From the NCBI GenBank assembly GCA_017416465.1, contig JAFQCK010000058.1:1-43190 (forward strand): a stretch of DNA of 43,190 nucleotides, written 5' to 3'. Of this stretch, positions 217 through 20,143 are shown in pieces. The notes beneath the pieces are model-generated. The model saw nothing but the letters and a program-made list of their open reading frames with translations, was not told the origin of the DNA and did no database searches. The stretch comes from Lachnospiraceae bacterium (GTDB lineage Bacteria > Bacillota > Clostridia > Lachnospirales > Lachnospiraceae). Position numbers and translations under genes: made by a program. Numbering within the stretch: the stretch's first letter is position 1; each line of letters begins with the position of its first letter.

Positions 217-864
217 ATGATAACAGATGACAGAAGTAAAATTAAAGTAATACCTCGTAATGAATTTTTGACGGTTGAAGCTGTTTACGGAATGATTCCA
301 CATGAATTTAGATTACATATGCAACGTGTTGCAGGATATTGTGATATTCTTATGAAAAACATCGAAAGAGATATTAGTTTTATCAATGTTATTGAACGAG
401 AGTTTTATGCTCATGCAAAAGATGTGTTTAAATATCATGACATAGGATATGCGTTTGTTCCGCTTGATTATTTCGGAGAGGATGAGGAGATACCTGAACA
501 TGTCATATATGCTGAAGATGCATTTGAAAAGATTGTTCATAAGAGACTTGATGCACAGATTGTAAAGAGAGCTAAAGAGTGTGCCAAATATCATCACGAG
601 AATTATGATGGAACAGGATATCCGGAAGGGCTTAAAGGAGAAGAGATACCTTTTGTGGCCAGAGTATGTGCAATAGCAGATATGTATGACCATCTTGTTA
701 ATGATAATCCATATTCTATTAATGAGGGTAATGGTGAAATTGTTGATAAGATAGTTAGTTTGTCGGGGAAAAAATTTCATCCGCAACTTGTAAATGTTTT
801 TGTAAGTTGTGCCGAAAAATTCAAGAGACAGGATATTATATATGGAATATATAAAAGATATTAA
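217..864 (+). CDS. HD-GYP domain protein (c-di-GMP phosphodiesterase type)
   Basis: A 215-residue protein made almost entirely of an HD-GYP domain. The metal-binding HD pair is H74-D75 in KYHDIG. A downstream His lies in PEHVIYAED, and the HHE triad is at 126-128, followed by DGTGYPEGLKGEEIP and a conserved ARVCAIADMYD helix. HD-GYP enzymes usually hydrolyse cyclic di-GMP. The core residues look intact, although the usual DAL and RPYR stretches have diverged (YDHL, NPYS). There is no sensory, receiver or membrane domain, so it is a stand-alone cytoplasmic enzyme. It is shorter than most family members. The next gene starts 26 bases later with a good ribosome binding site, which suggests an operon. 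Its position at the head of a surface-protein cluster that ends with an EAL protein suggests c-di-GMP control of that cluster. The domain call is firm and the role is inferred. Confidence 0.75.
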   Translation: MITDDRSKIKVIPRNEFLTVEAVYGMIPHEFRLHMQRVAGYCDILMKNIERDISFINVIEREFYAHAKDVFKYHDIGYAFVPLDYFGEDEEIPEHVIYAEDAFEKIVHKRLDAQIVKRAKECAKYHHENYDGTGYPEGLKGEEIPFVARVCAIADMYDHLVNDNPYSINEGNGEIVDKIVSLSGKKFHPQLVNVFVSCAEKFKRQDIIYGIYKRY

Positions 865-890
865 TATGAATGGATGAAAGGAGATAATGT

Positions 891-1775
891 ATGTCAAAGC
901 TTGATCTTAAATCCATTCTGTGGCGAATTAAGTATTGGTTGGAAGAGGTTTCGCTAGGTATAAGGAATGTATTCAGGAAAAACAGTGTACGTAAGATTAG
1001 AAATTTATGTTTGTTTTTACTGGGTGTTTTGTTTGTAGTAGCGATATTCTATCACAATATGGGAAGGTTTACAGTTACATTAGACCCCAAACTTCAAAAA
1101 AGAGGAATTTATCTTTTTAATAATAAAGAGTTTGAGAAACCTAGAACCAGATTATTCAGTTCAGCATTAGAAGAATGTGATAATACAAATCTGAATGATT
1201 TGCCACTGGATTTGAATGAAACTGACGGAAGTCATAATGGTAAAACATATATAGCATATACATTTTATTTAAAAAATGGTGGTATAGAAACTGTTGATTA
1301 CCAATATAGTCTTAATATAGGCGATTCTACTAAGAACGTTGATGAGGCAATTTGGATACTTCTATATAAGAACGGTGAATATGAGATGTTTGCGAAAGCA
1401 AGAGCTGATGGAACATTTGAAAGACAGTATACATATGATGAGTATCAGATAATGTCACAGGCAAAGAGTGGTAATGAATATACATATACTTTAAATGATA
1501 GTGATAAAGGATTGTTAACTGAGACAGATATTGAACGATTGGGAGTATATGATTTTAATGGTTTGCTGGAATTAAGACCTCAAAAGTTTAAATCTGATAA
1601 AGTAATTACAGAAGGTTTGGTTATGGGCTTAAAGCCAAAGGAATACGACAAGTATACAGTTGTAGCCTGGTTAGAAGGTGAAGATCCGGAATGTATAGAT
1701 GACATTAAAGGTGGTTACATAGAGATGAATATGAGATTTGATATATTGGAGGAAGAAGAGGAAGATAAAAAATAA
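891..1775 (+). CDS. Membrane-anchored extracellular protein related to the TasA-like subunit
   Basis: A 294-residue protein with a basic cytoplasmic N-terminus and one membrane helix at about residues 36-57 (IRNLCLFLLGVLFVVAIFY). An extracellular domain follows, then a very acidic tail (EEEEEDKK). The start ATG at 891 has AAAGGAG seven bases upstream; the earlier ATG at 887 runs quickly into a stop. The segment near its C-terminus (VAWLEGEDPECIDDI) matches the equivalent segment of the next gene product (YIWLEGADKECVNKI). The two are therefore probably divergent paralogues with a TasA/camelysin-like fold. Unlike that neighbour it lacks an AWF signature after the helix, so it may stay membrane-bound as an anchor or minor subunit. 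No enzymatic motif is visible. Family membership rests on this one motif and on context. Confidence 0.55.
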   Translation: MSKLDLKSILWRIKYWLEEVSLGIRNVFRKNSVRKIRNLCLFLLGVLFVVAIFYHNMGRFTVTLDPKLQKRGIYLFNNKEFEKPRTRLFSSALEECDNTNLNDLPLDLNETDGSHNGKTYIAYTFYLKNGGIETVDYQYSLNIGDSTKNVDEAIWILLYKNGEYEMFAKARADGTFERQYTYDEYQIMSQAKSGNEYTYTLNDSDKGLLTETDIERLGVYDFNGLLELRPQKFKSDKVITEGLVMGLKPKEYDKYTVVAWLEGEDPECIDDIKGGYIEMNMRFDILEEEEEDKK

Positions 1776-1868
1776 GAGAATATTATAAGTAGAATAATAA
1801 CAATGTATTTATGAAACTAAAAGTAATATTAATGGGATTGAAAGAATTATATTAATGAAGAAAGGATA

Positions 1869-1931
1869 ATGCATACACCCGGCTTTCAATCTGAAAAAGG
1901 GTTTTTATGTAATTTGATTTACAGTATGCAT
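1869..1931 (+). promoter_or_regulatory. Structured leader upstream of the TasA-like gene
   Basis: A perfect 8-bp pair, ATGCATAC (1869-1876) with GTATGCAT (1924-1931), encloses a smaller hairpin. The smaller hairpin is CCC (1878-1880)/GGG (1899-1901) plus TTTCA (1884-1888)/TGAAA (1892-1896), and TTTTT follows directly. The inner part looks like a weak intrinsic terminator and the outer pairing could compete with it, so attenuation is possible. It matches no riboswitch class I recognise. Confidence 0.35.
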
Positions 1932-1955
1932 GGTATAAAATATGAAAAAGAATAA
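1869..1955 (+). CDS. Possible 28-residue leader peptide overlapping the TasA-like start
   Basis: ATG at 1869 is preceded by AAAGG with short spacing. It opens 28 codons (begins MHTPGFQSEK) that end at TAA 1953-1955, overlapping the fibre-subunit ATG at 1942 in another frame. The fibre gene has no ribosome binding site of its own and has a stop codon immediately upstream in frame. Coupled re-initiation from this leader is one way it could be translated. There is no family support, so treat this as a candidate. Confidence 0.22.
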   Translation: MHTPGFQSEKGFLCNLIYSMHGIKYEKE

Positions 1956-2844
1956 TGAAAAAGTTACAAGACAGAAAAGGAACAAGAGACAAAGAATTAT
2001 GGCAACAGTTGTTGCTTCAATTTCAAGTGTAGCATTACTTACAACAGCTACATATGCATGGTTTTCATTGACTAATGCAGCACAGGTTAATCAGCTTACA
2101 TTAAAGGCTGGTACAACAGGAAGTCTTTTGATTTCTAATTCAGCAACAGATGGATTTTCAGAAGCAATAGATTTGGAATTACCTTCTGATTGTTGTTTAA
2201 GACCACTTTCAACATTGAATGGTACAAGTTTCCATAAACCAATATATGGAACTGATGGTGTGGTAGAAAGTGTTAATACTACTGCTATTACAAACACAGA
2301 AATGGATAAGATGGTTAATAAGTCAGAAGCTAATGGTGGTTGGATTATTAAAAAGACATTCTATTTGAAAGCTAATACAAAGAGTGAACTTACACAAGTT
2401 GGTATTAAATTGTTAGCTCCAAAGAACACAGAATCATGAACAACTATTACTAATGGTAAAGATGCTAATGATAAGCCTACAAAAGGTGCAGAGGCAATAA
2501 GAATAAGTTTTACATGTAATGATGTTAACAATGGTATTACCACTAAAATTTTTGAGCCGAATGCAGATGCAACATTTGCAGAAGCAGATGCTGATCAGGC
2601 TGAACTTAGTGGTTGGTCAGGTATTTCAACAATTAAACAGAGTGCAAATCATTTATTTATGCCTAAAAATGGTTCAACATATACAGATTATGTTTCAGAA
2701 GAACTATTCAGAATTCCTACTAATCAGGCTGTAGAAGTTACAATGTATATTTGGCTTGAAGGTGCTGATAAAGAATGTGTAAATAAAATTGTTGGAAACG
2801 CAATCAATGCACAGATTAGATTTATTAGTGAGGATATGAACTAA
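1942..2844 (+). pseudogene. TasA-like SipW-dependent fibre subunit interrupted by an in-frame TGA
   Basis: Codons 1-165 encode a basic N-terminus and a hydrophobic segment ending in TATYAWFSLTNAA. That is the classic signal of SipW-processed TasA/camelysin-type proteins. A TGA at 2437-2439 stops the frame. The same frame then stays open for 134 more codons to TAA at 2842-2844 and carries the family C-terminus (EVTMYIWLEGADKECVNKI). Composition does not change across the stop and there is no frameshift, so one substitution in a 300-codon gene explains it (TGG to TGA is the simplest). TGA ends another gene in this window (20578-20580), so codon reassignment is unlikely. ATG 1942 lacks a visible ribosome binding site. 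The natural product would be an exported subunit cleaved by the SipW encoded 3 kb downstream. Alternatives to decay are a sequencing error, suppression or readthrough. Confidence 0.65.
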
Positions 2845-2870
2845 AAAACAAGAAAGCAGGATAGATAGGT

Positions 2871-4445
2871 ATGAATGCATTTTTTAATTATTTTTACGAT
2901 TTTATATGTGCTATTGCCGGTAATATATGGTCTATCATTAAGAATCTGTTTTTAGGATTAGTAAGTTTGTTTGATTTTTCGTTTTATAACAAAATACTTA
3001 ATTCATATAGAGCTAAATTTGGTGTAGCCGGCTGGGTATTGTGTGTTTTTGCATATATATTATTATTTATAGTAGTTGTAGCAATTGTATTCCTTTTATA
3101 CAGAGCGATTAAGAGATTTATTACTTTTAAGCAGCCTATAAAAGAAAATGAGGAACTTAAGGATGAGATAACCAGACTTAAACATGAAATGTACAAGTTG
3201 AGTTATGAAAGAGATAAAATTCTTGCTATGCAGGTATCTAATCTTGGAATGGAAGTTGAAGAATCATTATTAAATGTTAATGAAGATGAAGAATTAGAAG
3301 AGGGAGAAGAAGCGGAAGATGATCCACTTAGAGTATTAGTGGAAACAGCTGATGACCCTAATGCAAGATTTAACAGACTTATGTATGTTGACAGATATTA
3401 TAAGTCAGATGCATATGTAAGACCTGATTATAATGATGATATAACACTTGAAGATATCTGTAAGGATTTCAGAAACTTTGCAGCATCACAGTTAGGACTT
3501 TATTACGACCTGGATTTGATTAAGTTATTTATAGCTGCACTTGGTGCAACAAAGATGATTATCCTTCAGGGTATTTCAGGTACAGGTAAAACATCTTTGG
3601 CATATGCTTTTGGTCAGTATATTAACAGACCATCAATAATTTGTCCTGTACAGCCTGCATGGAGAGACAGAACAGAGCTTTTTGGATATTTTAATGAATT
3701 TACCAAGAAATTCAATGAGACGGATTTCTTAAAGACTATATATGAAGCAAGTTATTATGAAGATATGCAGTTGATTGTACTCGACGAAATGAATATTGCC
3801 AGAGTTGAGTACTATTTCGCAGAGATGCTTTCAATTCTTGAAATGCCAAGAATTGAAGAACGTAAAATTTCAATAGTATCTGCTGTATGGGATAATGATC
3901 CGGTAAAACTTGATGAAGGAAAGTTATTTATTTCTCCAAATGTATGGTATGTTGGAACAATCAATAACGATGATTCTACATTTGCAGTAGCTGATAAGGT
4001 ATATGATAGAGCTATTCAGCTTGACTTAGACACAAAGGCTGCAAGATTTGATGCACCTAATCCGGGTTCTTTATATGTAAGATATGAACATGTTAATGAA
4101 ATGTTTGAGAAAGCAAAAGAAACCTATGCTTTATCTGAGTTGTACAGAGCAAAACTTGAAGAAGTTGATAATTATATTATTAAGCATTTTAGAATTACAT
4201 TTGGTAATCGTATCTTGAAACAGATATATGATTTTGTGCCTTGCTATGTTGCTTGTGGCGGAACAGAAGTAGATGGTATAGATTTCATGATTGAAAAGAA
4301 GATTTTAAGAAAGTTCACATCGTTAAATCTTGGCTATATAAGAGATGAAATTGATGGATTTATTGCATATCTCAATGAAATATTTGGATATGAAAATATG
4401 AATATGTGTAAAGAATTCTTATTAAGATTAAAGAAAATGGTATAA
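2871..4445 (+). CDS. Membrane-anchored McrB-like AAA+ ATPase
   Basis: A 524-residue protein. The N-terminal ~85 residues contain an amphipathic stretch and a strong membrane helix (WVLCVFAYILLFIVVVAIVF), then a coiled coil (ENEELKDEITRLKHEMYKL) and an acidic linker. The AAA+ core begins near residue 210. Walker A is GISGTGKT (234-241) and Walker B is LIVLDEMN (301-308). A sensor-1 segment reads VGTINNDD (361 on), and a candidate arginine finger is R380 in KVYDRAIQLDL. The LDEMN and GTIN style is that of McrB and related GTPase/ATPase rings, which normally drive the McrC nuclease in restriction. Here a membrane anchor replaces the DNA-recognition domain, and the gene lies between two surface-protein genes. 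That argues for a motor working at the cytoplasmic face of the membrane. The next gene, 41 bases downstream, encodes the probable partner. ATPase identity is firm; the role is inferred. Confidence 0.75.
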   Translation: MNAFFNYFYDFICAIAGNIWSIIKNLFLGLVSLFDFSFYNKILNSYRAKFGVAGWVLCVFAYILLFIVVVAIVFLLYRAIKRFITFKQPIKENEELKDEITRLKHEMYKLSYERDKILAMQVSNLGMEVEESLLNVNEDEELEEGEEAEDDPLRVLVETADDPNARFNRLMYVDRYYKSDAYVRPDYNDDITLEDICKDFRNFAASQLGLYYDLDLIKLFIAALGATKMIILQGISGTGKTSLAYAFGQYINRPSIICPVQPAWRDRTELFGYFNEFTKKFNETDFLKTIYEASYYEDMQLIVLDEMNIARVEYYFAEMLSILEMPRIEERKISIVSAVWDNDPVKLDEGKLFISPNVWYVGTINNDDSTFAVADKVYDRAIQLDLDTKAARFDAPNPGSLYVRYEHVNEMFEKAKETYALSELYRAKLEEVDNYIIKHFRITFGNRILKQIYDFVPCYVACGGTEVDGIDFMIEKKILRKFTSLNLGYIRDEIDGFIAYLNEIFGYENMNMCKEFLLRLKKMV

Positions 4446-4486
4446 AAGTTTAGCTAAGACTAAACTACAAGGAAGGAAGTGAGTGT

Positions 4487-5953
4487 GTGGAAGACGTAAC
4501 TCATGACATATATGAGCTGTATCATGAAGATTTTATTAAAAAAATTAAAGAAGATAAGTTCTATAAATATTATTATAATTTATTGGAAACAGGAACAATT
4601 TATTCAAAGTTTCAAAATAGAAAATTGATTAAAGATATAGATGAAGAGTGGGTAGAAGCAATTGAAAAAGCACTTCCGCATATTCATTATGTTGCAGAGA
4701 ATCCAAGAACATTTATTGAGGATGATAAGCAGATTGTAAACGTATCTATTGCAAGAAAGTTTACTGTGGAATCAATAAAGCATCTTGCTCAACATTCTGA
4801 GATGATTGATAGAGTAAAAGAAGACGGTTCTGTTGAACCTAACAGAATTTTGAATGTTCTAAAAGAAGAAAGTTATAATACATATGAAAACAGATTTATT
4901 AATACTTTGATTAGAGATTTAAAATTCTTTGTAAATGAAAGAGCGGATGTTATCTTGGAAAGAAATAAAGATGAAGATGGTGTACTTCTTGAGGTTGATT
5001 CTAACATTGATAATTATTCAGAATTTATAAGTTATAAAATTGAGATGAGAATCAGAGAAAAACAGACAGATATGGCTGCTGATGAGGAAAATCTCAATAT
5101 GTACAGTAGAGTTTCCGTACTTCATAAGGAGATTAATTCGTTGGCATGCTCTAAGTTTTCGGTTATTATGTCGGATTATCCGTTAGTAAAACATCCGGTT
5201 GTAAAAACTAATGCAATTGCTAAGAATGTTCATTATAAAGCGTGTTATGATTTATGGAACTTTATACGTTCTTATAATCGTGTTGGTTATAGAGTAGAAA
5301 TAATAGAACAGGATCCTGTTATTAACAGAAAGTTTGAAGAAGACATTTATCATTCTTTACTTATGAATTTTGTAATGTTAAGAGAGCATATGTATTATAA
5401 GGATATTATTAATATTTCAAGAGGATTAAGAGATAAAGAAGTAAGTGTTGCATCTATCAGACAATTTATGGAAGAAGTTGTTAATGAGTATAATATGCCT
5501 GAAGCAGATTTGAAACAATTGATTCTTAAAGAATTTGCCAAGGCGCAGAGAGAAAAAAATCTTATCGTCAATAAAGCTAATAAGCTCCTTGATAAGAAAA
5601 AAGGTAAAGAAGATAAAAAAGCTAAGATTGAAAATGCTGTAAGTTGGGATGAGTTTGTAAAGGCTGCAACAGCTGAAGACAGAGCGTTAAAAGAAGAACA
5701 GGATAAGAGCAAATCTTCAGGTAAGTTAACAAGACGTGAAAAAGATAAGCTGAAGAAAGAAAAGAATATTAGAAAACAACAGGAAGCTAAGCGTATCGAA
5801 CAGGAATTAGAAAAGAAACGTAAGGAAAGACGACTTGAAGAACAAAAGAAGAATGAAGAAGAACAAAGAAGAATGATGGCTGAAGCAAAAGCTTTGGAAG
5901 AAGTTAAGTCAAAGAAGACATTATTTGGAAAATTTAGAAAAAAGGATAAATAA
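4487..5953 (+). CDS. McrC/DUF2357-like partner of the AAA+ ATPase with charged coiled-coil tail
   Basis: A 488-residue cytoplasmic protein without signal or membrane segment. It starts at GTG 4487, seven bases after GGAAGGAAG. Residues near 131-141 read TYENRFINTL, resembling the ENRF segment of DUF2357 proteins that accompany McrB-like ATPases. A later YKACYDLWNFIRSYNRV stretch also fits that group. I see no clear PD-(D/E)XK nuclease motif, so any nuclease function may be lost. From about residue 370 the protein becomes a long Lys/Glu-rich coiled coil that ends in GKFRKKDK. The tail could bind membrane, nucleic acid or another protein. Its stop overlaps the sipW start by one base (TAATG), implying coupled translation. 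Family assignment is tentative; pairing with the ATPase by position is the stronger argument. Confidence 0.45.
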   Translation: MEDVTHDIYELYHEDFIKKIKEDKFYKYYYNLLETGTIYSKFQNRKLIKDIDEEWVEAIEKALPHIHYVAENPRTFIEDDKQIVNVSIARKFTVESIKHLAQHSEMIDRVKEDGSVEPNRILNVLKEESYNTYENRFINTLIRDLKFFVNERADVILERNKDEDGVLLEVDSNIDNYSEFISYKIEMRIREKQTDMAADEENLNMYSRVSVLHKEINSLACSKFSVIMSDYPLVKHPVVKTNAIAKNVHYKACYDLWNFIRSYNRVGYRVEIIEQDPVINRKFEEDIYHSLLMNFVMLREHMYYKDIINISRGLRDKEVSVASIRQFMEEVVNEYNMPEADLKQLILKEFAKAQREKNLIVNKANKLLDKKKGKEDKKAKIENAVSWDEFVKAATAEDRALKEEQDKSKSSGKLTRREKDKLKKEKNIRKQQEAKRIEQELEKKRKERRLEEQKKNEEEQRRMMAEAKALEEVKSKKTLFGKFRKKDK

Positions 5954-6537
5954 TGTTAAAAAAAGGTTTAAAAAACATAGTTATAAAAACTGCAAGATTA
6001 TTATTTGATATGGTAGTTGTACTCTTCATTATATTTTTTGCATATGTTTTTTTTGCTACATATACTGGAAGAATACCTAATATATTTGGATATCACTTTT
6101 TTAGAGTTGTGAGTTCAAGTATGGAGCCGGATATAATTGATGGTGATTGTATAATTTCAAAAACAACTCCAGTTGATGAAATAAAAGTTGGAGATATAAT
6201 TACTTTTTATTCAGAAGATCCTGCAATTTATAATTTTTTGAATACACATAGAGTGGTAGGTATTATTGAGAACCAATATGGTGAAAAAGAATTTGTTACA
6301 AAAGGTGATTCTAATCCCGGTGAAGATGTGTATACAGCAAAAAGTAATAAAATAATAGGAGTATATCAGGGAGATATATTTATAGGTGTTATTATTTCAA
6401 AGGGGTTTGAAATATTATCGAACAGAGTGATTTATTTTATATTCATTATGTTACCAATAATAATGTGTTTTATATCAAGTATAGTAGATATTATTCATAT
6501 TGTGATGGATTATGAGGAAGACGAAGAATATGAATAA
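5953..6537 (+). CDS. sipW: SipW-type signal peptidase I
   Basis: A 194-residue membrane protease of the ER/SipW type that removes signal peptides from TasA-like substrates. It has an N-terminal helix (VVLFIIFFAYVFFA). The nucleophile Ser56 is in VSSSMEPDI. His99 in NTHRVV takes the place of the Lys found in classical bacterial signal peptidases. The conserved TKGDSNPGED segment follows, then a C-terminal helix (VIYFIFIMLPIIMCF) and an acidic end. Length and two-helix layout are typical of SipW. The gene is translationally coupled to the McrC-like gene by TAATG and is followed 32 bases later by a putative substrate. This makes it the dedicated peptidase of the cluster. Confidence 0.9.
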   Translation: MLKKGLKNIVIKTARLLFDMVVVLFIIFFAYVFFATYTGRIPNIFGYHFFRVVSSSMEPDIIDGDCIISKTTPVDEIKVGDIITFYSEDPAIYNFLNTHRVVGIIENQYGEKEFVTKGDSNPGEDVYTAKSNKIIGVYQGDIFIGVIISKGFEILSNRVIYFIFIMLPIIMCFISSIVDIIHIVMDYEEDEEYE

Positions 6538-6569
6538 CTATTAATAAAATGAAAGGTAAGTAAGCAGTT

Positions 6570-7367
6570 ATGGTTATGAGATTGAAAAAATTAAAAAACA
6601 TAATAAATAGCAAAAATGCCATGATTATTATTTCAGCAATAATTATGCTTATTTTACTTATTTCAGCAACGATTGCGTGGTTTGTGTTATCAAGAGATGC
6701 AAGGATTAATTTGTTTAGTAATAAAATTTCAGAATGGGATTTTGTTGTATCAGATACTCCGGGTGGACCTCCTATTTCTGAGGATACGGTTCTAAACTTT
6801 AATGTTGATGAATTTATTAATGTGACAAGTGGTGTAATGGCACCGGGAACAAGTGGTTCAATCGATTTATATGTAAGAACATCGACAGATGTAGTAACTG
6901 AGTATGCGTTATTTCTTGATAATTCAGGTTTAAGGCTTGATGCTTATTCTGATAATGCAGTTACTGATGAAGAGATACAAGCTGAAAAAGATGCTAATTC
7001 GGAGATGTTACGTAATCATATAAGATTTTATCAGGATGCTGAACATACTAAGGAGTTAAGCATGACGGAGGCTATCAAAGGTGAACTTAAACCAAATGAA
7101 GAAGTAAAGGTGTCAATTTACTGGTATTGGTTATACGATGGTAATGAAGCTATTTCATCGGAGATGACAGATGAAGATGAAAGACAGGCATTTTTAAAAC
7201 AGTGGGATTTAGATGATAATTTTATTAGTGATAACCAGGATAAAATATCAGGAACAATAGATATATCAGTGTTTGCATCACAGCAAAGACCTGTTAATGC
7301 ATCAAATGGTCAAATTTCATCAAATGGTCAGATTTCATCGGATGGTCAGATTACAAGTGGTGAATAA
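6570..7367 (+). CDS. SipW-dependent TasA/camelysin-like surface subunit
   Basis: A 265-residue exported protein. The N-terminus is basic, then comes a helix ending LLISATIAWFVLSRDA, which repeats the AWF signature of SipW substrates. The mature part contains VMAPGTSGSIDLYV, the Pro-Gly-Thr-Ser-Gly strand usual in TasA/camelysin-like beta sandwiches. The C-terminus is a low-complexity run of the pentapeptide-like unit NGQIS/DGQIT, repeated about three times. That run could be a flexible spacer and is prone to length change. It lies directly behind sipW. With the upstream TasA-like gene broken, this may be the main intact fibre subunit. The start at 6570 has AAGGTAAG upstream; ATG 6576 is an alternative. 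Confidence 0.65.
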   Translation: MVMRLKKLKNIINSKNAMIIISAIIMLILLISATIAWFVLSRDARINLFSNKISEWDFVVSDTPGGPPISEDTVLNFNVDEFINVTSGVMAPGTSGSIDLYVRTSTDVVTEYALFLDNSGLRLDAYSDNAVTDEEIQAEKDANSEMLRNHIRFYQDAEHTKELSMTEAIKGELKPNEEVKVSIYWYWLYDGNEAISSEMTDEDERQAFLKQWDLDDNFISDNQDKISGTIDISVFASQQRPVNASNGQISSNGQISSDGQITSGE

Positions 7368-7449
7368 TTTATTCGATTGTTGATATATGGTAATTATTTT
7401 AAGATTATATATAGTTATAAATATATAATTTATTGAAAAGAGTGTGGAT

Positions 7450-8103
7450 ATGAAAGCAAAGAAGATTTCAAATAACCAAAAAGAAAAACTTAATATATAT
7501 AAAGCAAAAGTTATAGCCATTATAGCGATGATTAGCTATATGGCTATTACTGTGGTTGTTTGGGCAAAGTTTGTGAAAGAAGAGTACATTAAGGCAAATG
7601 TATTTGACCAAAATATTGCTACATATTATATGGATGTTTTGGGGGAAGACCAGACAAAAACGCTTTCCGAGCAGATTTTAGTAGATGAATTAAATCCGGG
7701 AGAAACCAGAGAAGTTGAGTTCTATGTTAGAAATGGAAATGATTCAAAGGTTTCACAAGTTGATATGGATTATGAGATTGAATTGATTCATACCGATAAT
7801 ATGCCTCTTACATATGAATTATATGATTCGGAAGGTAATCTTCTTACCGGTACAGTACTTACTGATAATGTGAATTTGTATGAGAATGATGGGACAAGAG
7901 TGAAATATAATCAGTCGAATAATAATGAAAAGTTTGTTTTACATATTGATAAAAATGATGAAACTAAAATTGATTCACAGAAATATACGCTTAAGATTTC
8001 TTGGGGAGAAGATATTGGAACAGCAGATTTTAAATATGTAAAAGAAATTGATTTTTTGTATGTAAATGTATATGCATATGAAAGTAATCCGTTAAAGAGT
8101 TAG
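7450..8103 (+). CDS. TasA-like surface protein with VWAKFV-type signal
   Basis: A 217-residue protein. ATG 7450 is preferred because AAAAGAG lies seven bases upstream, whereas the GTG at 7444 has no spacing. A helix (VIAIIAMISYMAITVVVWAKFV) is followed by an extracellular domain with DELNPGETREVEFYVRNG. That resembles the ELNPGE strand common in SipW-substrate families. No enzymatic residues are visible. It belongs to the run of three short surface proteins between sipW and the giant gene and shares the W-A-K-F/Y-V post-helix motif with the next one, so these two are probably related. Likely a minor subunit or anchor; whether SipW cleaves it is not shown. Confidence 0.55.
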   Translation: MKAKKISNNQKEKLNIYKAKVIAIIAMISYMAITVVVWAKFVKEEYIKANVFDQNIATYYMDVLGEDQTKTLSEQILVDELNPGETREVEFYVRNGNDSKVSQVDMDYEIELIHTDNMPLTYELYDSEGNLLTGTVLTDNVNLYENDGTRVKYNQSNNNEKFVLHIDKNDETKIDSQKYTLKISWGEDIGTADFKYVKEIDFLYVNVYAYESNPLKS

Positions 8104-8123
8104 AAAACGGAGGTAATAAGATA

Positions 8124-9260: not shown

Positions 9261-9283
9261 ATTGAACGGAAATGAGGATTAAT

Positions 9284-12200: not shown

Positions 12201-15200
12201 AAGGGAAACATATATCAGGAATAGGTTCAAAAGATGACCCGTTTGTAATTGATGATGAAGCAAAGCTTACATTATTTTCTGCTTATATGTGTAGTTATTA
12301 TAGTTCACTGGATTACTATCTTAAATATTTTTCGGATATAGAAGAAATGTTAACTGAAGATGAAAAAAATACACTTAGTTGGGTAGAAAAGTATGAGATG
12401 TATTTTCATAGGATTGTTACAGGATATTATGTTTTTGCAAGTGATATGGATTTGACAGAGCATGCATATTATCCGGCAATGAAGTGTGCAGGTAAATATT
12501 ATGGCTTTGATGTGTATGAATTTACCGGAAAGACAACACTTACAGATGAAGAACTTAAGATGTACTCAGCAAGTGCCATTTCTGCTATTGAAGATGGTGC
12601 ATCATCTAATGGAATTAGTCCTGAAAATGTATTACAGTATAAGCCGGAGATACATTTTGCAGCAGATAAGGTTGCAGAAGGTATAAGAGGAACTGCGGTA
12701 TCTAATACTGCTCATGGAACTTCTCCTACAGCTTCAAGGGGTATGCATTTAAAGCTACATGGCGGCTTGTTTGGAGAAATTACAGGTGCACAAGGGAAAT
12801 ATAAGGGTGAAACGTTTAAAAGAGGAAATGTAACTATAAGTAATCTTAAGTTATCAGGAGTTGCCTGTGGAAGTACCATGTATGGAAGGGGTGGTGGATT
12901 CCTTATATCAGGTTATGATGTCAATTCAGTAAAAAATGCAAAATTAAATATTAGTAATATTGATTTCCAGAATGCTATGATAATTCAGGGATATAATGTA
13001 GGTACTAATGATACAGTCAGAGCAGACGGATTATTAATCGAAACAATTGATAACAGTGAAGTAAATATTACAGGAATTAAGATTCTTGCTGATAGTGAAG
13101 GTAATGCTAATATAAGAGCGAGTGCATTAATTGGATATCAGACGGGTACAAACAGTAAGGTAATATTTAGAGATATTGATTTAAATGCAGTTATTGACCA
13201 AGGTACAATTACTCCAAAAGACCCGACAAATACAGAAGAATATCTTCCAATTGAGGAAGTGGATTTTGAAACTACTGAAAAAGAAGCATATTTTAGAAGT
13301 GCTCCTGCTAATATTGATGAAGCTACAATGACTGAGGCTGAAAAAGAGCAACTGGAAGCATTTAATAAATACGGATATGGTTTCAGATATGGATATTTTT
13401 ATTATAATTTAGCTGCGGGAGCTGCAATTTATTATTATGATGTAGGAACGGATATTGTAACACCGGGAAGAACAGCTGAATCGATTGATATTGATACAAA
13501 GATTTTATCAAATGATATACTTTTAAGACAGGTTCAGAAATATGCATATAGAACTATAAATGTAGATGTAAACCCTGAGTCAGCGAACATAATTCATGGT
13601 ACAGGAACTAAAACTGACCCATACATCATTGAAAATTTAGGACAGCTTGTAACACTTTCTAACTTCATAAGATATAAGGGAGATATTATAGATTACAAGA
13701 CTTGGTATGTTGGTGAATCTACCGGAACAGGATATGATGAAACAGACCCTGATACTTGGGTCAATGATTCTAACCTTATATATAGAAACAGACTTGAAAG
13801 TGATGAGATTGATAATAGAATTAAGTCAGTTGAGTATCTTACAAAAGCACACTATAAGATTACAGCAGATATTGATTTTTCTAATCCGAATTCATATTTT
13901 GCACAGGCAGCACAGAATTTTAACGGAATAGGTATAGAAGATTATCCGTTTGCCGGAAGTTTTGTGGGTGAGGTTAAATCTGATGGAACATATCCTAAGA
14001 TATTAATTGGTAATTCAAGTGAAACATATGTTAGCAATTTTAGTATAATACAGTATGCTAAGGGAGCTAAAATATCTAATATTGATATTGTCGCTGGAAA
14101 AAGATATGAAGAAAATGTAAGTGTAATAAAAGGCTCATATTCATATGTTGAAGGAATCGGAGCAGCAAAAATATATTTGAATAATAGCAACTCTCAAGCA
14201 GGTATGCTTATTAATAATATAGTAGGTGGAGATAATATTATTGATAATGTAAGTATTGGAGCAAATGTTCAGTTAAAAGCTACACAAAATGCTTATTGTT
14301 ACATTGGTGGATACGTAGGTATCATGAAAAATGGAACACTTACTATTGGAAATATGAAAAAATCAACTTTTGAAGATTTCCAAGTAAATTATCTCAATAA
14401 TGGTAAAATATATCAAAGTAATTATGAAAGTAACTCATATGCAAAATATACTTCTGCTATAGTGGGTGATTATTATAATGGTTGTATTATTATAAAAGAT
14501 GAAGATTTAAATGCTGATAAGTTGGATGTTGATACAAGTCCGGTCGTTACTGTAGAAGAAATTGAAGAAGTGGTAGATGGAACACCGGTTACAACTAAGT
14601 ATAATACAATAAGAGTAGATGATATAAATTATTATAATAAATATAAAATACCTTGTTCGTTTGAATATAATCCTATCAATTATAATTATATTGAGAAAAT
14701 GAATACTAAAGAAAACAGAATCAAGGTAATAAAAGATGAAAGAGCTGATGGCGAAAAGTCAGGTTCATTTATCTGTCAGATTGATAATGCTGACCAATTG
14801 TTTTTACTATCGCTTATTGTTAATTCGGGTTCACTTTCGCCCGTAAATTCTACTGCTATAGAAATACCTTATACTTTAAGGGCTTCAACACAGAAATATG
14901 ATGAAGATTTTGCAGACTGGATTGCTAATGAAAATGCAGGAAAAGATATAGATATAAAACTTACTGAAAGCTATGATATGCCGATGTTCTTTAAATTCTT
15001 TGATTTTACGGCACTTGATAACGGTTATAGAGATGTATATGAGACAGGACACAGTTTATTGAGTACCGGTGTCCCTACAAATCTCACTAAAGATAGTGTA
15101 AAAAGAACAACATATATGCTTACTAATCCTGATAAAAACTATGTATATAATATGGCTGCATATGGTCCAGCTTTTACAGGAATCGGGCCAAAAGGAGAAT

Positions 15201-18200
15201 TACATACATGGGAAACAGGCAACAATTACCATTTCAGTCCGTCACTTTGTTTTAATGCTAATTTTGATGGTAATGGACATACAATTTATCTTGATATGTA
15301 TAAAGCCGGATATACAGGTCTTTTTACAATTTTAAAAAGTAGTGGTGATAACAATAGTAATGCACCGTATGAGATTGGTAATTTTACAATTAGAGGTAGT
15401 GTAAAACAAAATAAGAAAATGTCATCTACCCCAACAGGAGCGGTTGCCGGAACTGTTTGGAGTGTATATGTTAATTTTAAGGATATAACACTTGCAGGCT
15501 TAGAAGTATCGGCAGAAAATGGTGGTAATGTTTCAGGAGTATTAGGAAATTGTGCAAACTATGGTTATCAGGTCAAATTTGAAAACATTAATATTGGTTT
15601 AAAGAATGGAACTGATGAAAATGGTGATGAAATTAATAATAGTGTTTTAGTTGATGGAACAAAAAATTCTTCGGCAGTAGTTATAGGCGGCTTAGTTTCA
15701 CAACCTAGTCAGGTGAAAGCAAATAATATTAATATGACTAATACTAAAATAATTGGAAAAGGAAGTGTTGGTGGAGTTGTAGGAACTATGAATCTATGGA
15801 ATTGGTCATGGGATTCATATATCAATGATGTTACTATTACAGATACAGTAATAGAAACAACAGGAACAGATAATAGAGGTATAGGTCTGATTCTTGGTTA
15901 TACAACGACTAATAATATAGCATCTATTAATTATCCGCTTGCTATTCATAACATAAAAGCTGAGAATTGTAAATTGATTGCACCGACAGGGTCAGTAGCA
16001 GGAATTATTGAAGGTTATCATACAAACTGTGCACTTAGAGAAGTTCTTAAATTTGAGCATAAGAATATTAAAGATAAAGATGATAAAGAGATAACAACAG
16101 TATGGGAGTGTCGTGCAACAGATGATACATGTACATATATATACCATAATGAATTCTACGAACTTGAAAATGCAGAAGAATTATTTGGAGTTGACAGAGA
16201 GGCAGTAGATATTAATGGAAAACTTATTGCAAAATATTCAGAATGTCTTGAGACAAATTTTCTCTCAAATATTGATGCTAACAATGATGGAAAGCCTGAT
16301 GATATTGACTTGATACCATCTACTGACAGAATGGATAATGTAATTCTTAAGTGGTCGAGTGATAATGGTACAATGGAAAGTGTAATAAACAGTTTGTTGA
16401 GTTCGTTGACAGGTGGAACCGGATTATTGAACGATATTAATAATTCAAGAATGACAGTAACTGTTACACCTATGCAGGTTAAAGATGGTGTTGTTTCTGA
16501 AAGAACGGATGGTGCTACGATTCTTACAATTATAAAAAATGGTGGTAAATTTATCATAAGTAATAATAATAAGTTTGATTCGTTTGAAAAAGATGATTCG
16601 CCTGCAACGTATTCGATTGTAACAATTTCTTATACTGTAGTAGGTCAGGATGGACATACTAATCTTACAAGATTTACGGAAACAATTGAGATTCCGATGT
16701 TTATCAGTAACATGGTAAATGTAGATATTTATTCTAAAGTAATGATTGGTCAGGAATATGATAAGGATATAATGAGAGCGATAACTCTTACATCAAATGA
16801 TGCTCAGGTTACTACAAAAGACAGTTCTTATACTGTATATACGGAATATTTATACAGTGCAAACAGAATTGATTTTGATGAAGAACTTTATATGAATAAA
16901 GGTTTCAGATTATATGATGCACCGGATCCTTGGATTAAGAAAGGTACAAAACTAACACTTATAGATTTGACATTTGAAGATAATCCTATAACATATTATT
17001 ATGATGTTAAGGAACAGACAGAATTTGTACCACTATCTTATTTTACAGATGAGGCAGGTAATCATTACGCAGAAAGAGATATTAATAAATTGTCAGAACT
17101 TCCTGTAACTAATTCTTATACGACAATGTATGTAAATGGAAGAACATGGAAGAAATATGATAGAGGTGTTGAGAAGTATTTATTGTTTGTTGATTGTACA
17201 AAATCAGAAATTCCGATTGATGCAAATCAAAGTAATCTTTCACCGTTTATTATAGATGGTGTACCAAATGGTCAGACAGAAATAATTAATAAAGAAGTAT
17301 TTTATATAAAATACAGAACATTTAATACTCTTTCAACTTTTGCAGGAAGAAAGATAGAATTTATTGATGACTCTCTTGTAACAGAAGGTGAGATTAATAA
17401 AGAAAAACAGTTAAATGTTAAAGTTAGTTATTCGGATATCGCTTCGGATTATTATTGGAGTGATATTAAACAATATGACTATAATAATCAGGGAAAATAT
17501 CTTGAGGTTGCAGTGTATCTTAAGAATGATAAAGATGAAAAAGTAATGCTTCCTTCAGGAACAAGAATTATGTACCCGGGTTCGACAACTGTTTATGAAA
17601 GTGTTAAAAATACATCAGCAATATTCTATTATAAAGATGGTGTAAAAAAAGAAGGTTATGCTTTAATGGATAAGACTGAAAATACAATAGAAGATGTTGA
17701 ATTTACACTTGATTTTACATATGCTAAGATGGATAAGTTGCCAAGTGGTCAGTATAAGATATGTTTTGATTTGGTTAGAAATACAAATAAAGATTTTCCA
17801 ATGGGTGATGATTTGATTGATACAATTGAAAGTGAGGACATAAGTGTATCAGCAGGAGCTGAATATGGCTTCAGACTTGATACAAACGGAAAAGATACAT
17901 TAGCATTTAACATTGCAGATGTAGCAGATGGAACTGTATCAGAGGTTAATTTTGGTTTAATGATAAATTCAACATTACCGGTAGATATTGCAGAAAATAA
18001 AAAAGCAGTTATTAAGTTCAATCTTTACAAGAAAGATGAGGATTCAGGAAATTTTGTATCGTATAAGGATGATATTGATACGGAACTGACAGATATTGAA
18101 TTGGAAGTTGAATATAATAGTATACCTGAGTCGGTAATGCTTAATGAGGTTGATTATGAGTATAAATTTGAAGGGATTTCGGGAATAAATGAAGAAGCAA

Positions 18201-18337
18201 CAAGAGCTGAATGTAAGCTTAGATTACCATATGATGCAGATATAAATAACTATAAGTTACAGGCAGAACTTTATATTGATGGCTATAAACAGGCAAGTGA
18301 TTTCTTCGTTGTAAATTTGTCTGATATACGTCATTAA
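9284..18337 (+). CDS. Giant N-terminally anchored beta-repeat surface protein
   Basis: About 3,017 residues. ATG 9284 is preferred over 9272 because GAGGA lies five bases before it. A basic start and one helix (KFLVLFVIIALSFVCV) lead into a very long Asn/Thr/Tyr-rich extracellular region. Four copies of an edge motif of the form G-x-G-x3-D/E-P-Y-I-I-D-S mark module borders, at nucleotides near 9467, 10621, 12218 and 13597. Between them are many GGVIGT/GGLIG-type strands like those of GLUG or beta-helix adhesins. The last ~700 residues differ and look like Ig-like or beta-sandwich modules. There is no LPXTG motif, no cell-wall repeat and no C-terminal membrane helix. Retention must therefore depend on the N-terminal helix or on the neighbouring subunits. 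It is the terminal and dominant cargo of the sipW cluster. Adhesin or fibre-backbone function is inferred. Confidence 0.7.
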   Translation: MSKKNKKRGYWSFILTHKKFLVLFVIIALSFVCVPHIYEQIKGEDAPIALQLKDPNNAVNSEENPYILDSVDDFIILQEYSKNNDCYGMYFEVGNTLKNNKLTYSEEEEDEEGSELGGVVYNLNLVGTLVLEDESKSEFIGIGQNYLKPFRGNIMFSGITIRLDTPLFCFLGSGASIEELNMFGKIVPDKMNTVVEKNATVGTLAGMAILDSAVDSLNISTVSVSNKTTVYGATKPAGGLIGTVIGDPRQSRKDRLGTTVSKPQEYNINLDGITITDDTHVMCIGTGTANYTSFSNHTIGTLNDNFVADAGGVIGVVSTTHVNLNVNFTGTTLVKGSVENNKNSVGGVIGTINLNVCVKFDGDVDVQGLTALTLNGTGNYARSGYVIGSMMFQTLAYMTEGNEIKKPVNDELAKALEVGLTVNGVSGQIFKNTSEEVFAKNNAIVNGKGTDAEPYIIDSIDDIERLSALLCSTGSFGCWYNADTKKYDTWFELPDSVNTSNTTYIWNHLRKATYQIATDLDLSTRGIEKINRRAYDAFQGSIIGLAGTYKDGNAYPTIYQNVDSYNSTLALIPYAYGNLVAATATEPAYSKPLVFKDFRMEGKVSGAYSVHGLIYDYINSNTNYSGIEFNNIEMNLDLESKELNNSMMAGFVCYIRYYDVTNAIDCELNVNFNNIKYNGKFITNSNDCSYGSGLIGYLYGPHNNMTSTVQGNKLKLNINDYDFTSEEIKSTGNGTHRICSTINQVLFQGNRGYISKDIAGLASTIYHRPVINMNNINIHDIVYTNGANDYDQMGGVLAYSLASAEVNLNNINVTNIDYNLRTGFGFLFINNLNGSFVEMDKVTFENVNIYKEKNTANENYNMGAFVNEALGGIVTVKDYIVNNSNIYLFGGKERVSETVFDTYSYNNSTQWINHKGLFSFEGNDKEGNRYTAVNTYNPQFKYTNKDDTTQDYYSSSWTAYESGVSYNTISNMEGKHISGIGSKDDPFVIDDEAKLTLFSAYMCSYYSSLDYYLKYFSDIEEMLTEDEKNTLSWVEKYEMYFHRIVTGYYVFASDMDLTEHAYYPAMKCAGKYYGFDVYEFTGKTTLTDEELKMYSASAISAIEDGASSNGISPENVLQYKPEIHFAADKVAEGIRGTAVSNTAHGTSPTASRGMHLKLHGGLFGEITGAQGKYKGETFKRGNVTISNLKLSGVACGSTMYGRGGGFLISGYDVNSVKNAKLNISNIDFQNAMIIQGYNVGTNDTVRADGLLIETIDNSEVNITGIKILADSEGNANIRASALIGYQTGTNSKVIFRDIDLNAVIDQGTITPKDPTNTEEYLPIEEVDFETTEKEAYFRSAPANIDEATMTEAEKEQLEAFNKYGYGFRYGYFYYNLAAGAAIYYYDVGTDIVTPGRTAESIDIDTKILSNDILLRQVQKYAYRTINVDVNPESANIIHGTGTKTDPYIIENLGQLVTLSNFIRYKGDIIDYKTWYVGESTGTGYDETDPDTWVNDSNLIYRNRLESDEIDNRIKSVEYLTKAHYKITADIDFSNPNSYFAQAAQNFNGIGIEDYPFAGSFVGEVKSDGTYPKILIGNSSETYVSNFSIIQYAKGAKISNIDIVAGKRYEENVSVIKGSYSYVEGIGAAKIYLNNSNSQAGMLINNIVGGDNIIDNVSIGANVQLKATQNAYCYIGGYVGIMKNGTLTIGNMKKSTFEDFQVNYLNNGKIYQSNYESNSYAKYTSAIVGDYYNGCIIIKDEDLNADKLDVDTSPVVTVEEIEEVVDGTPVTTKYNTIRVDDINYYNKYKIPCSFEYNPINYNYIEKMNTKENRIKVIKDERADGEKSGSFICQIDNADQLFLLSLIVNSGSLSPVNSTAIEIPYTLRASTQKYDEDFADWIANENAGKDIDIKLTESYDMPMFFKFFDFTALDNGYRDVYETGHSLLSTGVPTNLTKDSVKRTTYMLTNPDKNYVYNMAAYGPAFTGIGPKGELHTWETGNNYHFSPSLCFNANFDGNGHTIYLDMYKAGYTGLFTILKSSGDNNSNAPYEIGNFTIRGSVKQNKKMSSTPTGAVAGTVWSVYVNFKDITLAGLEVSAENGGNVSGVLGNCANYGYQVKFENINIGLKNGTDENGDEINNSVLVDGTKNSSAVVIGGLVSQPSQVKANNINMTNTKIIGKGSVGGVVGTMNLWNWSWDSYINDVTITDTVIETTGTDNRGIGLILGYTTTNNIASINYPLAIHNIKAENCKLIAPTGSVAGIIEGYHTNCALREVLKFEHKNIKDKDDKEITTVWECRATDDTCTYIYHNEFYELENAEELFGVDREAVDINGKLIAKYSECLETNFLSNIDANNDGKPDDIDLIPSTDRMDNVILKWSSDNGTMESVINSLLSSLTGGTGLLNDINNSRMTVTVTPMQVKDGVVSERTDGATILTIIKNGGKFIISNNNKFDSFEKDDSPATYSIVTISYTVVGQDGHTNLTRFTETIEIPMFISNMVNVDIYSKVMIGQEYDKDIMRAITLTSNDAQVTTKDSSYTVYTEYLYSANRIDFDEELYMNKGFRLYDAPDPWIKKGTKLTLIDLTFEDNPITYYYDVKEQTEFVPLSYFTDEAGNHYAERDINKLSELPVTNSYTTMYVNGRTWKKYDRGVEKYLLFVDCTKSEIPIDANQSNLSPFIIDGVPNGQTEIINKEVFYIKYRTFNTLSTFAGRKIEFIDDSLVTEGEINKEKQLNVKVSYSDIASDYYWSDIKQYDYNNQGKYLEVAVYLKNDKDEKVMLPSGTRIMYPGSTTVYESVKNTSAIFYYKDGVKKEGYALMDKTENTIEDVEFTLDFTYAKMDKLPSGQYKICFDLVRNTNKDFPMGDDLIDTIESEDISVSAGAEYGFRLDTNGKDTLAFNIADVADGTVSEVNFGLMINSTLPVDIAENKKAVIKFNLYKKDEDSGNFVSYKDDIDTELTDIELEVEYNSIPESVMLNEVDYEYKFEGISGINEEATRAECKLRLPYDADINNYKLQAELYIDGYKQASDFFVVNLSDIRH

Positions 18338-18351
18338 AGTTATGGATGATA

Positions 18352-18600
18352 GTGATAATAATCACACTGATGTGCTGATTATTATCACAAGAATTTGTGA
18401 CGGAGCAAAAATTCTGTTGATTGCAGTTGCAAATTTGAAATTTGCAACGCAGTGCCTTCGCAAAAAGCTCCGGCATGGAGGATAACGAACCGAAGTTCGT
18501 AGCTATTTGTTTCTGGGCGAAAACAAATAGCATATCCGACACTGGAAACTCATTAGAGTTTCCGGTGCAGTTCTTCGCGATAATATCGCTCAGAAACGAG
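18352..18600 (+). ncRNA. Highly structured intergenic RNA element upstream of the EAL gene
   Basis: Six strong pairings occur within 250 bases. (1) GTGATAATAATCA (18352-18364) with 18376-18388. (2) GTTGCAAATTT (18426-18436) with 18438-18448. (3) CGGAGC (18401-18406) with GCTCCG (18467-18472). (4) A three-way junction closed by GGATA (18480-18484)/TATCC (18533-18537). It holds ACGAAC-cgaa-GTTCGT and GCTATTTGTTT (18502-18512)/18521-18531. (5) A 12-bp stem, 18540-18551 with 18556-18567. (6) A possible pseudoknot between loop CTGGGCGA (18513-18520) and TCGCTCAG (18586-18593), ending just before the ribosome binding site of the next gene. There is no U-run, so it is not a simple terminator. It matches no class known to me. 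It could be a cis-regulator, a stable small RNA or a dispersed repeat. Confidence 0.6.
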
Positions 18601-18607
18601 GAATGGT

Positions 18608-20143
18608 ATGATTACTGAATTAGTAACAGGTGCTGTTGCGGCGGCAGCAGCAACCGGAATAACGTATAATGTATGTTTGAAGAAAAACAAAGTAAAAGAA
18701 GTCAACGTTACAAAAGAAAAAAAGACAGAAGAAAATCAGGTAAAAGAAAATGAGCCGGAAGAGGTAGCACCTGGATATACTGAAGAGCAAATTAAAGAGC
18801 TTGAAAAAAATGCTTATTATGATATGGTAACAGGTCTTATGAATATGACCAAGTTCTCAATGGAATGTGACAGATTTATTAACACAATGCCTGGAGCATT
18901 TTTTGGTATAATCGTTTTTGAGGTTGAGAATCTTGATAGAATAAGGCTTTTGTATGGTTTGGCAGAATGTGATAAGGTAAGAAAATATATCGCGGATTCT
19001 CTTAACGAGATTCTTAACTATGCCTATATTTATGGTAGAGTACATGAGGATTTATTTGCGGTATTTGCTTGTTATGACGAAGAGGATGAATTACCAAATA
19101 TTGTAAGTCTTTTGACTGAGAATATTCATTCTTATGCAAAGAACGTTAATCTGACACTGCATTTTGGAATATATAACATGGATGATAATATAATTCCAAC
19201 ATCACAGGCAATTTATATGGCAGAGTTGGCAAAACGTACTGTTGCAAAAAATAATTCAGGTGAGAATTATGCATTTTTTACAGAAGCTTTGGAAGAACGA
19301 CTTGTTGAAGATAACCAAATGAGTGAGGAAATGAATAATGCATTGGATCGTAAACAATTCGTAATGTATATGCAACCAATGGTAAATCTTAGAACACATG
19401 AAATTATCGGAGCAGAAGCACTTGTTAGATGGGAACATCCTACAAAAGGTGTGCTTTCACCATTTAGATTTCTTCCTCTTTTTGAGGCTAATAATTTCAT
19501 TATTAAGATGGACCATTACATTTGGAGAGAAGCATTTAAAACAATACGACACTGGATTGATAATAAGATAGATCCTATTCCTATTTCAATCAATATTTCT
19601 CCGATTCATTTTGAACATCCAAGATTTATAGAGACATTATGTAATTATGCAGAGCAGTTTCGTATTCCTAAAAATATGATAGAGCTTGAGATACCCGAAA
19701 GAATATTTGCTGATGCAACGGAAAATATTGATAGGATTTTAAAAGAATTGCATGAAGAGGGATTTATACTGTGTATAGATAACTTCGGAAGTTATCATTC
19801 ACCAATTAACGCGCTCAAAGAAGCACCGGTTTCAGTTATCAAGCTTGATAGAAAATTTTTGAATAATAACTTATCAACTACGGAAGGTCTTACTCTTGTA
19901 AGATACTTATATGCGATGGCAAAAGAGTTGGGAATGCAGATTGTTGCGGAAGGTGTTGAGAATATTGAACAAGCGAATGACTTAAATGAATTAGGTTGCG
20001 ACTATGCTCAAGGTTTCTTCTTTGCTAAACCAATGACACTAAGAGATTTTGATGCATTTCATAAAGAGATTATGAAAAATAAATATATGCCTGCGGTGGT
20101 ATATCCTTCATTTGATGATGTTAATAAGGACTTATTACCTTAG
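18608..20143 (+). CDS. Degenerate GGDEF-EAL protein
   Basis: A 511-residue protein. An Ala-rich hydrophobic start (AVAAAAATGITY) may be a weak anchor and is followed by a charged linker. Residues ~70-235 form a GGDEF fold whose signature is replaced by GRVHEDLF, so no cyclase activity is expected. Residues ~245-500 form an EAL domain. E270-A271-L272 is intact, as are the NIS, ELEIPE, KLDRKF and VAEGVEN blocks. The DDFG motif reads DNFG (391-394), losing one of two acidic residues normally needed for metal binding and catalysis. It may be a weak phosphodiesterase or a c-di-GMP effector. GAGG lies six bases before ATG 18608, immediately after the structured RNA. Its placement at the end of the surface cluster fits signal-dependent control of that cluster. 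Confidence 0.75.
   Translation: MITELVTGAVAAAAATGITYNVCLKKNKVKEVNVTKEKKTEENQVKENEPEEVAPGYTEEQIKELEKNAYYDMVTGLMNMTKFSMECDRFINTMPGAFFGIIVFEVENLDRIRLLYGLAECDKVRKYIADSLNEILNYAYIYGRVHEDLFAVFACYDEEDELPNIVSLLTENIHSYAKNVNLTLHFGIYNMDDNIIPTSQAIYMAELAKRTVAKNNSGENYAFFTEALEERLVEDNQMSEEMNNALDRKQFVMYMQPMVNLRTHEIIGAEALVRWEHPTKGVLSPFRFLPLFEANNFIIKMDHYIWREAFKTIRHWIDNKIDPIPISINISPIHFEHPRFIETLCNYAEQFRIPKNMIELEIPERIFADATENIDRILKELHEEGFILCIDNFGSYHSPINALKEAPVSVIKLDRKFLNNNLSTTEGLTLVRYLYAMAKELGMQIVAEGVENIEQANDLNELGCDYAQGFFFAKPMTLRDFDAFHKEIMKNKYMPAVVYPSFDDVNKDLLP

Follow-up and report, generated by a model that had tools for sequence, protein, structure and literature searches.

The described system closest to the one treated here is CoCoPALM, which was named in a single paragraph by Bell et al. 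(2024; PMC11090510), a paper that in its accessible part defers the study of it to later work; the literature searches made turned up the name in this paper and its preprint alone. As outlined there, an McrB-type AAA+ protein of the NxD kind has, joined to its AAA+ domain, a region that combines an FtsB-like membrane part with a coiled coil, an McrC homologue has a coiled coil, a signal peptidase is associated and the clade is described as CoCoNuT-like. Here we consider a stretch of 43,190 nucleotides from a Lachnospiraceae bacterium (assembly GCA_017416465.1, contig JAFQCK010000058.1; hereafter the window), in which the genes for an McrB-type AAA+ protein (2871-4445), an McrC-type partner with DUF2357 (4487-5953) and a SipW-type signal peptidase (5953-6537) follow each other on the + strand amid genes for surface proteins. 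That such an McrBC-derived pair is associated with SipW and surface protein genes is well supported: of the 26 single-AAA+ loci obtained by even draws of genomes, 25 have SipW, against none of 21 tandem and distant loci. The system is real, conserved and little studied. A preliminary description of the window had read the cluster as a new system in which the pair, recruited to the membrane, powers or gates the assembly or export of SipW-processed fibres, a reading that was right in kind but not first, the system having been named as CoCoPALM (PMC11090510).

On sequence grounds, the window locus is a member of CoCoPALM and likewise combines an NxD McrB-type AAA+ protein that has an N-terminal hydrophobic region with a DUF2357 partner and a neighbouring signal peptidase. 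The accessible part of PMC11090510 names no SipW-type substrates, no SP2 (a recurrent membrane-anchored β-sandwich protein, in the window encoded at 891-1775, + strand), no giant proteins, no genes related to cyclic dimeric guanosine monophosphate (c-di-GMP) and no tandem AAA+-DUF2357-AAA+ form, although its supplements may. Added to that part are thus the SipW-type peptidase beside motif-bearing anchored proteins, the recurrent SP2, the recurring c-di-GMP genes and a SipW-free sister system, while nuclease loss in the McrC homologue is not new, McrC homologues of the wider coiled-coil clade being already reported there as often without a nuclease.

With McrBC type IV restriction systems, in which McrC activates McrB (PMC6624300; PMC7680126, both in their accessible parts) and the DUF2357 stalk of McrC activates McrB hexamers (PMC11090510), the window shares an McrB-family AAA+ gene adjoining one for a DUF2357/McrC N-terminal domain, but differs by the hydrophobic N-terminal segment and the surface protein neighbours; a nuclease was not found, and domain-model scans matched no DNA-reading domain. 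The tapA-sipW-tasA genes of Bacillus and sipW-bsaABCRSD of Clostridium perfringens also join a SipW-type peptidase to short secreted proteins, but do without an AAA+ protein as described in the accessible sources, where TasA-type fibres form without mention of an ATPase (PMC7395162; PMC9674648) and the word itself occurs 0 times in the available text of PMC13082335; in the window the AAA+ pair and SP2 are extra, as is a giant protein, and neither TasA nor camelysin models recognise its surface proteins. A shift of an McrB-family AAA+ protein from restriction to an envelope task is described, in the part of the paper available, for PcdA of Staphylococcus aureus, an McrB-derived division protein that has no McrC partner and whose Walker motifs have decayed (PMC10602043), whereas the window system keeps the catalytic motifs and the McrC-type partner. 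In bifidobacteria, according to the accessible text of PMC8430577 on PFNA, a MoxR-family AAA+ gene shares its operon with genes for DUF58, for a transglutaminase and for a large FN3 protein that is secreted. An AAA+ protein and its partner beside large surface proteins, as well as a transglutaminase core in the tandem sister, recall that operon, but the present AAA+ protein is McrB-type and its partner carries DUF2357 rather than DUF58; the likeness is one of layout. In general, MoxR-type and McrB-type AAA+ groups are akin.

Association of the AAA+ pair with SipW

A genome-contig search gave 449 stretches with a gene related to that of the AAA+ protein, and the best 80 by score, not an even sample, were kept; they come from named records that belong to Lachnospiraceae, Oscillospiraceae/Ruminococcus and Bacilli, with Anaerosporobacter faecicola KCTC 15857 (L023) and R. 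bromii 5AMG (L025) among them (L and G numbers denote loci and genomes). Even samples came from two draws, L021-L023 being the loci that sit in both an even draw and the best 80. In the family draw of 200 genomes, 28 including the window's own had an AAA+ match, and the 27 others, from all of which stretches were examined, comprised 12 with a strong single, 2 with a tandem and 13 with a distant match, one weak extra match in G073 being left out. The class draw of 391 genomes had 20 others with a strong match, of which 18 contributed 20 loci (14 single with SipW, 5 tandem and L148), with G688 and G929, whose matches are at contig ends, left out together with the second of two copies in G789. 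The totals are 26 single-AAA+ loci (12 from the family and 14 from the class), 7 tandem and 14 distant loci; three of the 14 distant ones (L126-L128) lack an AAA+ match by profile and some of their stretches are short (L124 has 5,077 bases). L148 itself, where a single AAA+ gene is accompanied by a DUF2357-type partner of 834 residues but not by SipW, is a divergent third arrangement.

Among the 26 single-AAA+ loci, 25 hold SipW, 25 DUF2357, 22 SP2 (taken at E<1e-20) and 17 c-di-GMP genes, against 0 of 21 tandem and distant loci for SipW, for SP2 and for c-di-GMP genes. The one SipW miss (L110) and the one DUF2357 miss (L136) are both on contigs that end there, and in none of the 25 loci with SipW is its gene more than 3.6 kb away from that of the AAA+ protein (in L102 the gap is 1,315 bases). 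With shared descent ignored, Fisher p values are 1.1e-11 for SipW, 3.2e-9 for SP2 and 2.1e-6 for c-di-GMP genes if L148 is counted as a miss, and 1.1e-10, 2.4e-8 and 7.9e-6 if L126-L128 are dropped. In the best 80 of the 449 stretches DUF2357 is present in 80, SipW in 78 and SP2 in 41; the two SipW-less loci (L034, L042) have just 39 and 586 bases ahead of the AAA+ gene and cannot show an upstream copy. All clustered AAA+ (79), DUF2357 (79) and SipW (112) genes are on the + strand of their loci. The neighbourhood, conservation of which the preliminary description had proposed to check, thus extends far beyond this strain. A phylum-wide draw (398 genomes, at most three candidates scored in each) returned the window only and is given no weight. 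The c-di-GMP genes and SP2 are both lineage-bound, because only 9/80 and 41/80 of the best-scoring loci have them.

The window SipW (5953-6537) reaches 89.3 bits with TIGR02228 (2.3e-25, cut-off 51.85) and 74.4 bits with the SipW model NF046067 (8.3e-21), under the cut-off of 190 of the latter, and carries in the alignment the Ser-Met and Thr-His-Arg motifs. Substrates of tapA-sipW-tasA and sipW-bsaABCRSD carry an A-x-[FY] motif. Of 935 genes within 9 kb in the AAA+ loci, 225 carry a SipW-type motif, compared with 4 of 174 in distant-McrB loci, and 76 of 81 loci have at least one such gene at that distance. An inactive SipW copy just upstream of the AAA+ gene in many of the loci, suggested by a strict pattern in which the serine was lost, was rejected, the alignment showing Ser-Met in all listed members and His in nearly all. 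Separately, 19 of 81 loci encode a SipW-like paralogue family (for example L055:4911-5483), 20 of the 21 members of which are without any Ser-Met, and which is perhaps, from its motifs, a non-catalytic signal peptidase relative; the window's SipW is matched by 10 of the 21. Genome G084 has ten SipW-model matches and no AAA+ match.

The AAA+ protein, its partner and their descent

As a single sequence, the 524-residue AAA+ protein (2871-4445) matches the McrB model weakly (1.3e-4, far under cut-off). A profile of 37 AAA+ rows run against 177,635 distinct PDB sequences gave three matches at E<=0.01, and all are McrB (2.8e-6 to 6.3e-6). In the window, a hydrophobic segment is followed by GISGTGKT, LDEMN and the NNDD (NxD) motif; none of the 37 rows departs from Walker A, Walker B (LDEMN) or NNDDST, and GT[AIV]NNDDST is present in 79 of 79 clustered AAA+ proteins. 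The NxD motif also occurs in the distant McrB loci with a profile match (L115-L125), and does not separate the groups. Residues 47-86 are hydrophobic and are succeeded by a Lys-rich and then a charged stretch, residues 56-130 matching the FtsL_broad model under its cut-off (1.9e-4, 21.3 bits against 42.45). By the positive-inside rule, the positively charged flank of a membrane segment sits on the cytoplasmic side. Because the Lys-rich stretch follows the hydrophobic segment, the AAA+ domain would lie on the cytoplasmic side of the membrane.

In 79 loci, the median distance from the AAA+ gene to the DUF2357 gene behind it is 34 bases. In the window, its product has DUF2357 (PF09823, 6.8e-8) and then a Lys/Glu-rich tail, and PF09823, the McrC N-terminal domain, matches 36 of 47 partner proteins. 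Aligned by hhalign to nine partners of distant McrB, the partner profile gave a probability of 94.8 (E 4.8e-8, 153 columns); the PDB sequence search did not recover the McrC likeness. The profile matches in the PDB include coiled-coil proteins, the single displayed alignment being Lys/Glu-rich, and each of the coiled-coil Pfam models matches at most 7 of the 47 partners. No PD-(D/E)XK nuclease matched the window partner at E up to 1, and none appears among the 25 of 56 families listed for the 47 partners, a sequence-level result that a decayed nuclease fold could escape. Regular occurrence of the pair next to restriction genes rather than near sipW had been named in the preliminary description as the contrary outcome; restriction-type partners were found in the distant McrB-type loci, none of which has SipW and in which PDDEXK_7 matches 5 of 10 scanned partners (one of the five under cut-off), not every neighbour having been scanned. 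In 25 loci, a protein of about 350 residues and of unknown kind is encoded directly upstream of the AAA+ gene (for example L053:2311-3357), with no member in the window.

In a tree of 103 AAA+ rows, a starred branch parts 92 SipW-linked and tandem rows from 11 distant McrB. This is a quick tree with the distant rows on long branches, as the program warned. Rows of Oscillospiraceae, Lachnospiraceae and Bacilli type mostly group by kin, and therefore an old and mostly vertical descent fits the AAA+ history, with L111 and L112, from family genomes, placed apart from other Lachnospiraceae. The separation of the SipW-linked from two tandem rows has a support of only 13. Distant relatives of the AAA+ protein are present in 2 phage and 263 plasmid records, but none of the phage and plasmid records searched covers 80% of it; together with the tree, these searches do not favour a mobile defence island.

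The SipW-free sister form and the possible role of the motor

Seven loci (L113, L114, L143-L147) have the arrangement AAA+-DUF2357-AAA+, and SipW was found in none of the seven. Among their 14 AAA+ copies, Walker A and NNDD are present by pattern in 14 and Walker B in 12, the two copies of L145 lacking it. DUF2357 is matched by 5 of 6 scanned partners at E up to 0.0019, and no nuclease was found in the six. All seven loci encode one or two N-anchored proteins downstream, of 379 to 1,383 residues (one of those in L144 runs off the stretch), which are interlinked by BLASTP at 1e-4 and of which two of three scanned contain a transglutaminase core. Genome G919 holds both forms (L131 and L145). Because the sister lineage is without SipW, SipW is not the common denominator of the two forms, and single-pass proteins with cytoplasmic tails are neighbours common to both, for which reason these tails would be the likeliest substrate. 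The sister is the most promising lead; judged by it, the motor should recognise the anchored precursors rather than the peptidase. Downstream in L143, a GH63/trehalase-type gene was also noted.

Since no nuclease was detected and a membrane anchor is present, regulated nucleoside triphosphate (NTP)-driven remodelling at the inner membrane face is left as a role. With somewhat better than even confidence, we propose that a cytoplasmic, membrane-tethered AAA+ machine drives or gates the maturation of N-anchored surface proteins and would act as a chaperone for the maturation or assembly of membrane proteins and not as a DNA translocase. The AAA+ subunits would form a ring tethered at the inner membrane face, into which the DUF2357 protein would dock and set off NTP hydrolysis in the way that McrC acts on McrB. 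The ring would grip the cytoplasmic tails of anchored precursors, namely the pilin-like proteins, SP2 and the giant protein, and by NTP use free, order or pass them on, whereby SipW cleavage and strand-exchange polymerisation could begin at one membrane site, perhaps marked by SP2; adjacent c-di-GMP proteins may tune the machine in some lineages. Powering or gating of fibre assembly by the AAA+ pair, as suggested in the preliminary description, is likewise conjectural. The SipW-type motif rule does not fire in the window SP2, and it weighs slightly against the proposed chaperone that the rule does fire in SP2 of 5 of 11 other SP2-bearing Lachnospiraceae loci. A PDB sequence search with SP2 gave no convincing match.

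More broadly, and only tentatively, an McrBC-derived membrane motor might be used generally in Clostridia and Bacilli to mature or assemble N-anchored surface proteins, in at least two lineages, a SipW-linked builder of pilin-like structures with SP2 and, in some lineages, c-di-GMP control, and a SipW-free form in which two AAA+ subunits surround one DUF2357 protein and the cargo is large anchored proteins, a transglutaminase core being present in some of these; cargo topology, not the signal peptidase, would be what they have in common. Since genomes of Lachnospiraceae, Ruminococcus and Bacilli type retain a restriction-derived AAA+ pair next to SipW, NTP may be consumed by some systems of the TasA-fibre kind. 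If true, a defence machine would have been converted to an envelope machine with its activator retained.

A ring that extracts or unfolds failed anchored precursors, as a quality-control chaperone that resembles the MoxR type more than a pilus motor, would fit the same genes, and the MoxR operon of bifidobacteria with its FN3 protein, DUF58 and transglutaminase (PMC8430577, accessible part) and the transglutaminase cores of the sister point in that direction; it is unlikely, however, as it leaves the tight SipW pairing of the single form unexplained and as no ATP-dependent protease domain was matched in the scanned proteins of the window. Rather improbable is a retained type IV restriction or abortive-infection role of CoCoPALM, with the anchor and signal peptidase as parts of an envelope sensor or effector: the AAA+ protein is of the McrB family by PDB profile and matches the defence candidate PDC-M26A, the clade was called CoCoNuT-like in the accessible text of PMC11090510 and distant relatives occur in the phage and plasmid records, but no nuclease was found in the window partner or among the 25 of 56 families listed for the 47 partners, against PDDEXK_7 in 5 of 10 distant ones, coverage in those records stays below 80%, the gene tree largely follows kinship and SipW-motif genes are near in 76 of 81 loci. 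Quite improbable is a positioning scaffold, in which an FtsB/FtsL-like anchor would place the SipW machine at a cell site and hydrolysis would merely control the scaffold in the manner of PcdA; the FtsL-type match, under cut-off, and the precedent of PcdA (PMC10602043) speak for it, but PcdA has decayed Walker motifs and, in the text available, no McrC partner, whereas the window system keeps both. That the AAA+ pair stands by chance next to unrelated surface genes is hardly credible, SipW-type genes being common (78 of 200 family genomes) but divided 25/26 against 0/21 between single and tandem or distant loci, and present in 78 of the 80 best-scoring loci of Lachnospiraceae, Oscillospiraceae/Ruminococcus and Bacilli.

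Gene order and surroundings of the cluster

The window takes up bases 1 to 43,190 of its contig, in a genome of 3.7 Mb and 172 contigs; its base 1 is the contig's own first base, so that the sequence upstream of 217 ends there. According to the open reading frame (ORF) list and translations, ten genes, all on the + strand, occupy 217-18337, and a GGDEF-EAL gene follows up to 20143, in the order and single orientation given in the preliminary description, with which the family scans agree but for one change in the TasA-like gene. Spacing within 217-18337 is tight, in agreement with the preliminary description, with 26 bases from 864 to 891, base 5953 common to the DUF2357 gene end and the SipW gene start, and 11 bases between 9260 and 9272. 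The widest spacings are 166 bases ahead of 1942 and 431 bases between 2439 and 2871, the latter of which drops to 27 bases if the interrupted TasA-like frame is counted to 2843.

This anchored TasA-like gene (1942-2843, + strand) is present as claimed but not intact: the ORF 1942-2439 ends in an in-frame TGA (2437-2439), past which the frame stays open up to 2843, and the C-terminus encoded there resembles that of the relatives, which are longer than the ORF and uninterrupted. The TGA is either a mutation or an assembly error, the two being indistinguishable. Behind SipW, anchored surface proteins 1 (6570-7367, with a SipW-type motif at its membrane helix), 2 (7444-8103) and 3 (8124-9260), the latter two also with the motif, are encoded on the + strand. 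No curated TasA or camelysin model matched the 41 short surface proteins scanned (E up to 0.01 for camelysin), and the best curated match, in one of the 41, was to the SipW-dependent model TIGR04088 at 0.0055. The anchored giant of about 3,000 residues announced in the preliminary description exists, with 3,021 residues (9272-18337, + strand) and homologues in L021-L023. Family-model scans found no domain over cut-off in it, and its reading as a beta-repeat protein is plausible because of nine short [AGS]-G-x-[VILF]-[GVCN] motifs.

Upstream, the HD-GYP protein (217-864, + strand; HD_5 5.8e-16) keeps HHENYDGTGYP and has HDxGK altered to HDIGY. The same holds in kind for the HD-GYP proteins of eight family loci including the window, in which HHExxDGxGYP is kept and HDxGK is changed to HD[IL]GR, or HDIGY in the window, and the gene adjoins SP2 in 7 of 12 other Lachnospiraceae loci as it does here. 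The GGDEF-EAL protein (18608-20143, + strand; EAL 7.5e-68) keeps EALVR; since it has no GGDEF-type motif by pattern and DNFG replaces DDFG in the EAL part, it may sense c-di-GMP rather than make or break it. Among ten proteins scanned from 18608 onward, those beyond 20143 are of other kinds. A lone PDDEXK_9 gene is located downstream of the cluster at 20680-21276 on the minus strand, and two large choline-binding-repeat proteins are encoded at 21869-25777 and 35147-38716, the second with a GH25 domain.

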